Assembly (NCBI GenBank): GCA_029858565.1
Contig: JAOUEV010000033.1
Span: forward strand, 1 to 39,296
Reading direction: 5' to 3'
Source: Nitrospirota bacterium
GTDB taxonomy: Bacteria > Nitrospirota > UBA9217
DNA: 39,296 nt
Shown: piece by piece, positions 35,293-39,145 of the stretch
Layout of the letters: each line of letters opens with the position of its first letter
Numbering within the stretch: the stretch's first letter is position 1
Notes under the pieces: generated by a model
Seen by the model: only the letters and a program-made list of their open reading frames with translations
Database searches by the model: none
What the model was told of the DNA's origin: nothing
Position numbers and translations under genes: made by a program

Positions 35293-37458
35293 TTAGCCTT
35301 TGCGGTACCGAGGACCTGACCAACCCTTTGCGGAGATAGGCATGTCCGTCGCCCACGGCGGGGGGTCGCAGAGGATGTCGACGAACTCTTCCGTCGAACC
35401 CGTGCCGATTTGTTTTTCGGTAATCCCCTCGTCATGCACCATCAAGAGACCGCGATACCCGCGCTTCTCGAGCCTCACCATGCCTGGCATCATAAGATCG
35501 CGCGCGGTCGCTTGGGTAATATTTTCGGCGAGCGTGCCGCCCCATGTCCGCTCGAGCGCCCACTTCTTCGTCTTGGAATTCACGCCCCAAAACTCCAGTG
35601 TCTCCATGGGGTTCGACGTCTTCGTGACGAGTATATCCTCGCCGGTTTTCTTGTCGGTCTCGATGACTTCGTATGTACGCACTCGCCACGCGAGGTGCGG
35701 GTCGGCGTAGGCGAGCCGGCGTCCGCTCGGCAACTCGACCCAGAGGAAGCGCACACCCCCATAGTACCGGCGGGGGTCGTAGATGAACTTGCACCGGCCG
35801 GCCGTGCGGATTCCTCCGCGGCGGACGACCTCGATCGCGGCGGCCTCGTACGCTTTCCAGAGATCCGGCACCGCCGGATTCGCCTCGCGGTAGCTCTTTA
35901 CGGCCTCTCTGGACTGTTTCAACGAGAGCTTCAGCCGGTACATATCCCACGCGGTCTTCTGAAACTTCGGGCCGCCCATTCCGAAGCCGCAGCCTAAGAT
36001 CTGGGCCTTGCCGAGTTGGCGCTCGTCGCCTTCCTCGGAGATCGCGATGTAGGGCTTCCCGGTGTTCGCGGCGGCTTGGTATCTATACGGGTCGAGGTCA
36101 CTCCGTAAGACCTTGAGGCCGGGCTCGTTCTCCGCCAACCACCAGAGGACGGCGACTTCGACCTTCGAGAAGTCGGCCACGAAGAGTTCGCAGCCCTCGC
36201 TCGGTATGATCATGTTCCGGAGCAGCGCCGAGAAGAGAACGCCGAGCGACTCGCCGTAGAGAAGATGCAGCATATCTTTGTCGAGCTCGATGACGTTTTC
36301 GACCGCGGCGTACGGACGGTCCTTCGACATCTTGATCAGCCCGCGCGGGAAGTTATGGGGCTGAACCCCGGTGCCGGTATCCCGGCCCGTCGAGGCCCCG
36401 TGGTATAATAATATATCACGCACGCGATCGTCGGCGTTCGCCCGATCGAGGAAGGACTTGTACTTCTTCGTCGACGCCATCGAGAGGGCTTTGCGGATCT
36501 CGAGGAGCTCCCGCATATCGTCGGTCAAGCCGAACCCGTTCAGCGCGTCCTCGACGGTTTGTTTACGGAGGTTCGGAAGCTCGACGCCCTCGAGCGCCAA
36601 GAACTCGAGTATGGACTTCACGGCGCCGGGCTTCGTAATCAATCCCATGGTGAGCGTGTCGAGATCTTTAAGCCGCGCCTTCGACTCGATCTCCATGATG
36701 TCCGTGATCTTCCGTACCGTCGGTACGTCGATGCGGAGGCCCCGCCAATTCAGCATCTGATTCTGAAACCAGATTTCCTGTTCGCTCGGGATGAGATCGG
36801 GCAGGGCGAGGTCGGCGAGTTCTTCGGTGCGTACGTCGATCTTGCAGTACCGATAAAGCGTCTCGAACACTTCCGGATGCGTCCAGGGCTCGATGAATAC
36901 CGGCGGCGCGTCCGCACTCGCGATCAGCTGCTTCTTGGCACCTACGCGCTTACCGGCTGCGACCTCGGCCCGCGCCTTCGCCCAGGCGTTGTATTGTTTG
37001 GTGGGCTTACAGGTCGCCATCATCGCGACGTACCCGGCTTTATCCTTCTGGGTCGTGAGCTTCAAGACGGCGCCGAGGTCCTCAAGCTTTCGCGGGAGGG
37101 AGGCAGCGGCGGCTTTCGCAGCCGTGCATCGCCGCTGCCGTGGGGGAATCGCCGGCCATCCGTAACGGCGAACTAGGATATTGTCGTATATGCAGCGCTC
37201 GAAGAACGAGTTGTGCGCGCTGAATTGGTAGCCCTCGAGGATGAGCCCGATCCAGAGATCTTGCAGCTCCTTCGGCTGCTGCTTCCAGGGGCGATTGATC
37301 GCGTGGTAATCGAGGAAGTAGACCGTCGGCTCGCCTACGATCTTGAACGCGAGGCAGGTCGGCTTCGTCGTAGGGTCGAGTGAATACTTGTAGGCGCCCG
37401 CTTTCTTCAGGTCCACCATCGAGCGTGTCTCGAAATCCTTCGTCACTCGCTTTATCAG
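35293..37458 (-). CDS. DNA polymerase family A with 3'-5' exonuclease domain
   Basis: 721 aa from a CTG start. N-terminus: KDFETRS, the first metal motif of a DnaQ/Klenow-type 3'-5' exonuclease. Polymerase motif A FVADFSKVEVAVLWWLAE near residue 429; motif B RQLGKAQILGCGFGMG near 490; motif C LLMVHDEG near 672. It copies the phage genome. GGAGG (37470-37466) lies 7 bases before CTG 37458, which overlaps the previous stop as CTGA, the same overlap used by its neighbours. The nearest standard start, GTG 37446, lacks a good site. Confidence 0.92.
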   Translation of the reverse strand: MIKRVTKDFETRSMVDLKKAGAYKYSLDPTTKPTCLAFKIVGEPTVYFLDYHAINRPWKQQPKELQDLWIGLILEGYQFSAHNSFFERCIYDNILVRRYGWPAIPPRQRRCTAAKAAAASLPRKLEDLGAVLKLTTQKDKAGYVAMMATCKPTKQYNAWAKARAEVAAGKRVGAKKQLIASADAPPVFIEPWTHPEVFETLYRYCKIDVRTEELADLALPDLIPSEQEIWFQNQMLNWRGLRIDVPTVRKITDIMEIESKARLKDLDTLTMGLITKPGAVKSILEFLALEGVELPNLRKQTVEDALNGFGLTDDMRELLEIRKALSMASTKKYKSFLDRANADDRVRDILLYHGASTGRDTGTGVQPHNFPRGLIKMSKDRPYAAVENVIELDKDMLHLLYGESLGVLFSALLRNMIIPSEGCELFVADFSKVEVAVLWWLAENEPGLKVLRSDLDPYRYQAAANTGKPYIAISEEGDERQLGKAQILGCGFGMGGPKFQKTAWDMYRLKLSLKQSREAVKSYREANPAVPDLWKAYEAAAIEVVRRGGIRTAGRCKFIYDPRRYYGGVRFLWVELPSGRRLAYADPHLAWRVRTYEVIETDKKTGEDILVTKTSNPMETLEFWGVNSKTKKWALERTWGGTLAENITQATARDLMMPGMVRLEKRGYRGLLMVHDEGITEKQIGTGSTEEFVDILCDPPPWATDMPISAKGWSGPRYRKG

Positions 37459-37880
37459 AAGAAATCCTCCTGCTCGCCATCGAGGACGAACATCGCGATA
37501 TGCTGGCCGATACCGCGCCCGGGAGTTCCGTCCTCGATCGCGCACCACTTGACGTCTTTCAGATTCCTGACCTCTTTGAAGTTGGGATGAGTGAGCAGCA
37601 TGAGAATCCATTTGTAAATCGGAAAGACGAGCACGACGCGCTTTCCTTTTTCGCTCTCGGCCATCGCTTTTCGGACCCACGCCGTCGGTCCCGAGAAGGG
37701 CGGATTGACGTACGTGCTCTCGCCCCACACGGCGGTCAGCCCGTCGAAGTCCTCGGGGCGGGGATAGGGGCAAGCGTCGAACGTGAAATCGAATTCTTTG
37801 GTGAGCGCCTCGAGAAGCTCCGGCGGAGTCAACCAGTAGTGTTTGCCGTCTTTGGCAGAGCCCTTACCTTCGCGTGGCAT
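37455..37880 (-). CDS. phage N6-adenine DNA methyltransferase (Dam-like)
   Basis: 141 aa. HYWLTPPELLEALTKEFDFTFDACPYP, then STYVNPPFSGPTAWVRKAMAES and RVVLVFPIYKWI, match the DNA_N-6-adenine methyltransferase family of phages, with NPPF as the catalytic tetrapeptide. It methylates adenine in phage DNA, protecting it from host nucleases. AAAGG precedes the ATG. It overlaps the end of the cytosine methyltransferase by 17 bases and begins 3 bases after the stop of the alternative frame there. Confidence 0.9.
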   Translation of the reverse strand: MPREGKGSAKDGKHYWLTPPELLEALTKEFDFTFDACPYPRPEDFDGLTAVWGESTYVNPPFSGPTAWVRKAMAESEKGKRVVLVFPIYKWILMLLTHPNFKEVRNLKDVKWCAIEDGTPGRGIGQHIAMFVLDGEQEDFF

Positions 37881-38820
37881 AGCCTAACAACCTTTCGAAG
37901 GCGATTTGGGCCTGGAGCGGAACCACTGCATTGCCCAGTCCTCTAAGACGGTTGCCCCGCAAGGGTACCCCATGAGCCACTCGACCCACATCGGGTTCAA
38001 CGTCCCACCACCGATAGCGGTCGGGAGATCGACGCCATTCTTCCGGCCTCTCGCTTTCATCGCCGCTGCCCCCTCCGGCGTCCGAATCCCCTTCGTCCCG
38101 TCGGCGGCTCGAGGCGTCGGCCAGAGAAGCACTTGCTCGTTGAGAGGGCGAGAATTCTTGCCGTGAAGATTGCTCTTTCCTGATCGCCAATCGCGCGCCG
38201 TTGGCGTCGCCCATAAACCCTTCCGCGCCATCGTATCGAGCGACATCCGGACCTTGCCCGAACGCCCGGCACTCCCGCCCTGATTCGTGCCGTAGGAGTT
38301 TGCCGTCGGCGTAGGCAAGAAGGAACCATCGCTTTCGCAGATGGTGGGCTCCGACTTCGGCAGCGGATACAACGTCCCATCGACAGTCGTACCCGAGATC
38401 GGTAAGTGATCGAACCACAACGTCAAGTCCACGGGTTCGTATCGCCGGGACGTTCTCGAGGAAGATGAACGGCGGCTCGATTTCTTTCGCGAGTCGGTGG
38501 ATCTCCCAATAAAGTCCGCTTCGCTTACCGTCCAGACCTCCGCCGCGACCCGCAGTTGAAATATCCTGGCAGGGGAACCCACCATAGAGGACGTCAATGC
38601 TTCCCAGAAAGTCTTCGCCTCGGAGTGTTCGCACGTCGTCCCAGATAGGAGCTGCGGGCACTTCCCCTTTGAACATTCGCGATAGGAGAACAGCCTGAGC
38701 ATGGGGTTCATTTTCACAGTAGGCGCGCGGAACGACGTAGGGTTCCAGAGCTTCGGCGAGTCCGCCGATGCCGGAGAAGAGATCGAGTCCGTTGATTCGT
38801 CCTCGGCTAGATAGATCCAC
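37864..38820 (-). CDS. DNA cytosine-5 methyltransferase (Dcm-like)
   Basis: 318 aa, GTG start at 38820. Motif I DLFSGIGG (13-20), motif IV GGFPCQDIS with catalytic Cys84, motif VI FLENV (120-124), motif VIII RKRWFLLA (162-169), and motif X RGLGNAVVPLQAQIAF near the C-terminus after WWDVEPDVGRVAHGVP. All elements of a C5 methyltransferase are present. The region between VIII and X is short and low in hydrophobic residues (RSSRQEF, RRRDEGDSDAGGGSGDE) for a target recognition domain. The whole gene is overlapped by a 312-codon frame on the same strand. It follows the HNH gene with a 14-base overlap. Confidence 0.92.
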   Translation of the reverse strand: MDLSSRGRINGLDLFSGIGGLAEALEPYVVPRAYCENEPHAQAVLLSRMFKGEVPAAPIWDDVRTLRGEDFLGSIDVLYGGFPCQDISTAGRGGGLDGKRSGLYWEIHRLAKEIEPPFIFLENVPAIRTRGLDVVVRSLTDLGYDCRWDVVSAAEVGAHHLRKRWFLLAYADGKLLRHESGRECRAFGQGPDVARYDGAEGFMGDANGARLAIRKEQSSRQEFSPSQRASASLADASSRRRDEGDSDAGGGSGDESERPEEWRRSPDRYRWWDVEPDVGRVAHGVPLRGNRLRGLGNAVVPLQAQIAFERLLGYATRR

Positions 38821-38822
38821 AC
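37884..38822 (-). CDS. overprinted alternative-frame protein across the cytosine methyltransferase gene
   Basis: 312 aa from GTG 38822, two bases from the methyltransferase GTG and using the same GGGAG. It shows three periodic motifs (FLPTPTANSYGTNQGG near 168, WATPTARDWRSGK near 204, WPTPRAADGTKG near 234) and GTLNPMWVEWLMGYP near 274-287. From memory of protein families, PTPTAxD repeats and LNPxWVEWLMGxP occur in the C-terminal parts of many phage cytosine methyltransferases and related proteins. The frame ends 3 bases before the Dam start, with AAAGG inside its last codons. It may be a second protein or a source of an alternative recognition domain. Confidence 0.5.
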   Translation of the reverse strand: MWIYLAEDESTDSISSPASADSPKLWNPTSFRAPTVKMNPMLRLFSYRECSKGKCPQLLSGTTCEHSEAKTFWEALTSSMVGSPARIFQLRVAAEVWTVSEADFIGRSTDSRKKSSRRSSSSRTSRRYEPVDLTLWFDHLPISGTTVDGTLYPLPKSEPTICESDGSFLPTPTANSYGTNQGGSAGRSGKVRMSLDTMARKGLWATPTARDWRSGKSNLHGKNSRPLNEQVLLWPTPRAADGTKGIRTPEGAAAMKARGRKNGVDLPTAIGGGTLNPMWVEWLMGYPCGATVLEDWAMQWFRSRPKSPSKGC

Positions 38823-39145
38823 GTGTATCTCCCTTGTGTATCGCGCTTGAACTTATGGGCGTCGAGGCGGCGATGCTCCCGGATGTGGTCTCCGCGCATT
38901 TTGATTTCTAGATTCTCGAAGCGGTTATCTGACCGGACGTGATTCTTATGGTGAACGCATTCGCCGGGGAGCATACGCCGATCGAGACGGCGTTCCATCA
39001 CTAGGATATGCTCGCGAACGTATCCTCCCCGTCGCGGCCACTTGTGGTCCGGCGCGTAGACGTGAACGTACCCGTCGCGATCGACTCGTCGACCGCCTTT
39101 CCAAGCGGGATGGTCTTCGCGCTTTATACCGCCCCAGCCGCGCAT
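38807..39145 (-). CDS. HNH homing-type endonuclease
   Basis: 112 aa. GYVREHILVMERRLDRRMLP then GECVHHKNHVRSDNRFENLEI form a complete HNH_3 site: the REH lead, HHKN core and the N-x-x-x-N-L-E end. Such small phage HNH enzymes are often mobile homing nucleases, or help packaging. AGGAG precedes the ATG, which overlaps the previous stop by one base (TGATG). It ends inside the methyltransferase start region. Confidence 0.88.
   Translation of the reverse strand: MRGWGGIKREDHPAWKGGRRVDRDGYVHVYAPDHKWPRRGGYVREHILVMERRLDRRMLPGECVHHKNHVRSDNRFENLEIKMRGDHIREHRRLDAHKFKRDTQGRYTCGSI
38818..38834 (-). promoter_or_regulatory. shared ribosome binding site with GTGTG double start
   Basis: On the minus strand GGGAGATACACGTGTGG gives one Shine-Dalgarno and two overlapping GTG codons. 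GTG at 38822 is 6 bases from GGGAG and opens the 312-codon frame; GTG at 38820 is 8 bases away and opens the methyltransferase. Both distances suit initiation, so the site can feed both frames. Confidence 0.6.

Follow-up and report, generated by a model that had tools for sequence, protein, structure and literature searches.

The cytosine methyltransferase locus described here carries a real pair of nested genes with an unusually clear dual-coding signature. The two genes very probably specify a two-polypeptide C5-cytosine DNA methyltransferase of the M.EcoHK31I kind, with the second subunit (beta) produced by internal initiation within the gene for the first (alpha).

Layout of the locus and its surroundings

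The analysed stretch of DNA (the window, positions 1–39296) makes up one entire contig, C79, in an assembly of 3.9 Mb. Phage genes on this contig include those for a helicase/primase, head maturation protease, tape measure, baseplate hub and wedge, and DNA polymerase, and no terminal direct repeat of at least 12 bases was found on it. The features of the methyltransferase locus are as follows.

37864–38820, minus strand: alpha (frame 1), C5-cytosine methyltransferase large subunit, 318 aa, GTG start at 38820, stop at 37864
37884–38822, minus strand: beta reading frame (frame 2), 312 codons from GTG 38822, phrog_1008
37940–38640, minus strand: dual-coding core, with suppressed synonymous variation of frame 1 in the homologues
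38758–38787, minus strand: alpha motif I, LDLFSGIGGL (ORF and invariant motif columns)
38557–38583, minus strand: alpha motif IV, catalytic PCQ (GGFPCQDIS; ORF and invariant motif columns)
37918–37950, minus strand: alpha motif X, RLRGLGNAVVP (ORF, invariant columns and AlphaFold2 helix)
38301–38315, minus strand: beta repeat 1, PTPTA (frame-2 translation)
38187–38210, minus strand: beta repeat 2, ATPTARDW, then RSGKSNLHGKNSRPLNEQV; candidate target-recognition element (match to Samy beta)
38100–38123, minus strand: beta repeat 3, WPTPRAAD (frame-2 translation)
37962–38000, minus strand: beta motif IX, LNPMWVEWLMGYP (frame-2 translation; alignment of homologue L197 with M.HhaI)
37963–37998, minus strand: alpha segment EPDVGRVAHGVP, encoded by the bases that also encode beta motif IX (frame-1 translation)
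37455–37880, minus strand: Dam-like adenine methyltransferase, downstream neighbour, its start overlapping the alpha end (PF05869, phrog_111)
38807–39145, minus strand: HNH endonuclease, upstream neighbour, its stop overlapping the alpha start by 14 bases (PF13392, phrog_20891)

Relative to alpha, beta is read in the +1 register: its codons are formed by the last two bases of one alpha codon and the first base of the next, so that the alpha wobble bases all fall at second positions of beta codons. In profile searches, alpha matched PF00145 (E = 1.4e-35) and phrog_363 (E = 7.5e-62) and beta matched phrog_1008 (E = 4e-21), while searches of Pfam and NCBIfam gave no model matching the beta of the window. 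The initial annotation had described a full C5 methyltransferase in frame 1, and motifs I, IV, VI, VIII and X are indeed present along with these family matches; it had left motif IX, in frame 2, unrecognised. It was also correct that frame 2 is open for 312 codons from GTG 38822 (ORF list), that it carries three PTP-A repeats (PTPTA, ATPTA and PTPRA), and that its stop, ending at 37884, falls three bases short of the Dam-like gene start at 37880. The translations likewise bear out that LNPMWVEWLMGYP (frame 2) and EPDVGRVAHGVP (frame 1) are read from the same bases.

Elsewhere in the window, the product of 9020–10399 matches both ParB-like and DNA methyltransferase families (phrog_498). This protein and the Dam-like protein, besides alpha/beta, give the phage three methyltransferase systems.

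Protein-level selection on both reading frames

Frame 2 might owe its length to chance and its form to the codon bias and conservation of frame 1, and so be a mere shadow. Its length is by itself a weak argument for a gene, since a frame 2 of at least 311 open codons arises in 0.2% of 20,000 synonymous-codon shuffles of frame 1; the value is moderately unusual (P about 0.002), and the initial annotation had already cautioned that length alone is not proof. Certain repeats of the two frames are also coupled through the same bases, as a shadow would be.

Other observations run against a shadow. Phage loci were sampled by scanning viral contigs with the frame-1 motif pattern VGRVxxGxP and the following RL, with the wobble bases left free and frame 2 ignored. 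Frame 2 encodes W.EWLM in every one of the 119 readable loci fetched through the frame-1 motif alone, and exactly WVEWLMG in 115 of them, compared with an expectation of 0.2% for W.EWLM after synonymous recoding of the frame-1 codons. The third frame is closed in the sampled loci (median of 7 open codons). Scored against a homologue profile built without the window, the window frame 2 reaches 169.5 bits, compared with a mean of 50.8 and a maximum of 99.1 for 2,000 synonymous shuffles.

Synonymous variation in frame 1, measured as observed/expected on 82 non-redundant alphas, is suppressed only inside the overlap. The ratio is 0.95–0.98 for codons 1–57, a stretch that includes the highly conserved motif I and so provides an internal control. 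It begins to drop at around codon 57–65 (about 38640), is near 0.4 across the repeat region and 0.21–0.27 at the shared motif, and is back at 0.95 at 37923. The reciprocal profile of beta is suppressed under conserved alpha and rises to 0.87–0.99 under the alpha residues that link motif VIII to the shared motif. The two profiles show constraint passing from alpha to beta, with both frames constrained at the shared motif.

Beta homology also continues where frame 1 is closed. Alpha ends soon after motif VIII in four relatives (L153, L146, L239 and L291), and beta alone carries motifs IX and X. The window frame 2 matches the parts of beta past the alpha end in L153 (E = 2e-15), L007 (1e-13) and L146 (3e-7), and each of these non-overlapped matches scores higher than any of 2,000 synonymously shuffled versions of the window frame. 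L007 is Streptomyces phage Samy, in which the beta stretch TPTARDWKSGASNLHGRNSRPLNEVV, lying beyond the end of the alpha ORF, matches the repeat-2 region of the window at this same E-value. L153 is the cleaner case of the two, because the alpha register of L007 stays open some way past the alpha stop.

A further locus (L040:912–1952, one contig) has a second beta of 347 aa after an ordinary alpha/beta pair. This second beta, whose ATG overlaps the stop codon of the first alpha, is intact, and the alpha frame beneath it is without motifs I, IV and X. Retention of beta over a decayed alpha is again contrary to a shadow. Synonymous suppression, shuffle scores, wobble-free sampling and L040 reject a chance long ORF at the level of the family, and we regard the shadow explanation as highly improbable. 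Computation shows that both frames are under protein-level selection. According to the initial annotation, normal synonymous variation together with a lack of frame-2 homologues outside the frame-1 shadow would have told against a second protein; strong suppression within the overlap and the homologues L153, L007 and L146 were found instead. There is strong support for its suggestion that the locus yields two proteins.

As a side observation, L040 reads as one alpha with two potential specificity subunits on a single contig. Three ORFs are seen in L179 (reverse complement, 542–2082), corresponding to alpha motifs I–VIII, beta motif IX and a separate 81-aa motif X ORF, an arrangement that may be real or may reflect an indel. 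L197, L202 and L145 have motifs I–VIII, or motif I, in the beta frame, which may be due either to natural fusion or to indels introduced by sequencing; L197 looks like a single-chain enzyme with a beta-like frame left over. These three were left out of the argument, except for the use of L197 in aligning motif IX.

Division of motifs between the two proposed subunits

Computation shows that the methyltransferase motifs are divided between the two proteins. In terms of PF00145 membership, alpha has the large-domain motifs I–VIII with the catalytic PCQ, together with motif X, and is without motif IX, which is in beta. The identity of LNPMWVEWLMGYP as motif IX follows from an alignment of L197 with M.HhaI through this motif (ERLNPDWVEWLMGYP versus RKLHPRECARVMGYP), in which the L197 stretch equivalent to beta motif IX aligns with KTRKLHPRECARVMGYP of M.HhaI.

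Alpha matches the large domain of M.HhaI/M.HaeIII, and its profile matches M.HhaI residues 11–178, with the terminal motif X weakly aligned. The AlphaFold2 model of alpha shows a confident large domain (about residues 8–175) and a motif X helix (288–312), with residues 196–278 mostly below pLDDT 50 and no small target-recognition domain. The linker between motifs VIII and X is poorly conserved and probably disordered. Beta modelled alone is poor (pLDDT 58); Foldseek returned no PDB fold match for this model, and the beta sequence profile gave no match to the PDB even at E = 10. A poor model of beta alone might fit a subunit that folds on its partner.

Target recognition is probably located in beta, judging from the AquI-like relatives in which alpha ends at motif VIII, and from selection in this region, which acts on beta and little on alpha. 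Just after motif IX (37948–37959), the window beta has CGAT where the consensus is xGWT, and on the same bases alpha has RGNR where the consensus is RVDR. L219 departs similarly from the consensus in both frames at these bases, a natural example of a single change altering two proteins.

In the proposed two-subunit enzyme, alpha would contribute the SAM-binding, catalytic large domain (motifs I–VIII), followed by a linker and the motif X helix. Beta, nested within alpha in the +1 frame, would contribute motif IX and probably the target-recognition region, i.e., the 'small domain' that alpha lacks. Both polypeptides would be translated from a single message and would assemble into one enzyme methylating phage DNA, with a probable role in the evasion of host restriction. 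Counting against the two-subunit model are the low pLDDT and missing PDB fold match of beta alone, the absence of a strong Shine-Dalgarno sequence at the internal starts of the window, the CGAT of the window after motif IX, though L219 is similar, and the published placement of the predicted M.EcoHK31I recognition domain in the larger subunit (PMC3404938).

Several known systems resemble the locus in part. The window alpha corresponds to the large domain of M.HhaI and beta motif IX to its LHPRECARVMGYP, but M.HhaI is a single chain of known structure, whereas the window beta alone has no detectable fold match. M.AquI (CYCGRG) is a two-subunit C5 methyltransferase divided after motif VIII, with a small subunit that carries both motif IX and motif X. 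It resembles L153, L146, L239, L291 and the Samy phage, which have IX and X in beta, and differs from the window, where motif X is in alpha. M.EcoHK31I (YGGCCR) is a two-polypeptide C5 methyltransferase whose beta is encoded inside the alpha gene in another frame, and the window family likewise has a nested, out-of-frame small subunit gene, with the two frames co-constrained. According to PMC3404938, which cites Lee, Kam and Shaw (1995), the large subunit of M.EcoHK31I contains motifs I–VIII and X while the small one contains IX, and in motif layout the window resembles it. The predicted recognition domain of M.EcoHK31I lies in the larger subunit (PMC3404938), whereas the evidence from the window family points to beta.

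Initiation of beta and breadth of the family

Many homologues have a frame 2 that begins with ATG or GTG at alpha codon 57–62, preceded a few bases upstream by a Shine-Dalgarno sequence, so that beta starts internally near alpha codon 60. Candidate starts in the window are GTG 38822, ATG 38711, ATG 38702, TTG 38597, ATG 38585 and GTG 38582. No strong Shine-Dalgarno sequence was found before any of the internal starts of the window, where, by analogy with its homologues, beta would also be made by internal initiation and not by frameshifting.

The start of beta is the point on which other explanations differ. According to the initial annotation, frame 2 begins at GTG 38822 and shares the Shine-Dalgarno sequence of alpha. 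The two-subunit enzyme would then stand, with beta beginning alongside alpha, and this would agree with a frame 2 that is open back to the alpha start in the window and in some homologues, and with the lack of a strong internal Shine-Dalgarno sequence in the window. The family, however, shows no synonymous suppression across alpha codons 1–57, its constraint beginning at about codon 57–65, and many homologues have no open frame 2 before codon 57–62, where it comes with a Shine-Dalgarno sequence of its own. The shared start is thus doubtful and, as an explanation of the locus, unlikely. A programmed +1 frameshift, also raised initially as a frame choice swapping the recognition region, would yield two alternative methyltransferases from one start, differing in their C-terminal regions. 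Both C-terminal versions are conserved, and the shifted product would link motifs I–VIII with the beta-coded recognition region and motif IX. Frame-2 constraint, however, sets in at about alpha codon 60, within the catalytic domain, far upstream of a useful shift and about 100 codons ahead of the recognition region; together with the internal starts of many homologues and a frame-1 motif X that the shifted protein would lack, this disfavours a frameshift, which we consider very unlikely.

Alternate-frame genes in phage methylases are documented, such as the hidden HNH endonuclease of the ShiLan insertion (PMC11855218), and an HNH gene lies directly upstream of alpha, so that frame 2 could conceivably be a mobile element of this type. 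Beta, however, matches phrog_1008, shares its bases with conserved methyltransferase motifs and is present in nearly all members of the family, which is not the pattern of a sporadic insertion. A ShiLan-type hidden HNH gene was rejected, as beta has no HNH family match in profile searches, and a mobile element of any such kind can be virtually dismissed.

The nested arrangement has known precedent and occurs widely, both in phages and in the genomes of bacteria. Each of the 122 betas that were aligned matches phrog_1008, and sequence searches found the family in phages of many hosts. A scan of 84,980 species genomes for the WVEWLMG pattern gave 255 confirmed places, with motif X in frame 1 at 78 of the 80 species-genome loci kept; searches of plasmids gave few matches. 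PHROG 363 (alpha) and PHROG 1008 (beta), both matched by the window, are each labelled DNA methyltransferase, but the PHROG library does not state that they are nested genes for one enzyme. Paenibacillus phage Diva has a homologue of the window beta (DIVA_50, E = 1e-12) in the +1 frame inside a methyltransferase gene, which is noted as 'g49 internal gene' and annotated as a hypothetical protein without a proposed function. Literature searches on overlapping genes in cytosine methyltransferases returned no published description of the nested alpha/beta family. What was known, then, is the M.EcoHK31I-like kind of enzyme, PHROG 1008 and the Diva internal gene; what is of interest is the breadth of the family, the selection on both frames and the apparent placement of the target-recognition domain.

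A wider reading, possible but tentative, is that beta is an exchangeable specificity subunit. On this reading, phages and prophages would commonly use nested alpha/beta genes, with recognition residing in the second frame; one alpha may serve several betas (compare L040), and parts of each subunit would have arisen by overprinting of the other. Many records annotate one frame only, so that half of such an enzyme is routinely missing from its description. The family is a large set for studying the co-evolution of two proteins on the same bases, includes what appear to be natural instances of splitting, fusion, duplication and one-frame decay, and bears on where sequence recognition is located in split methyltransferases.
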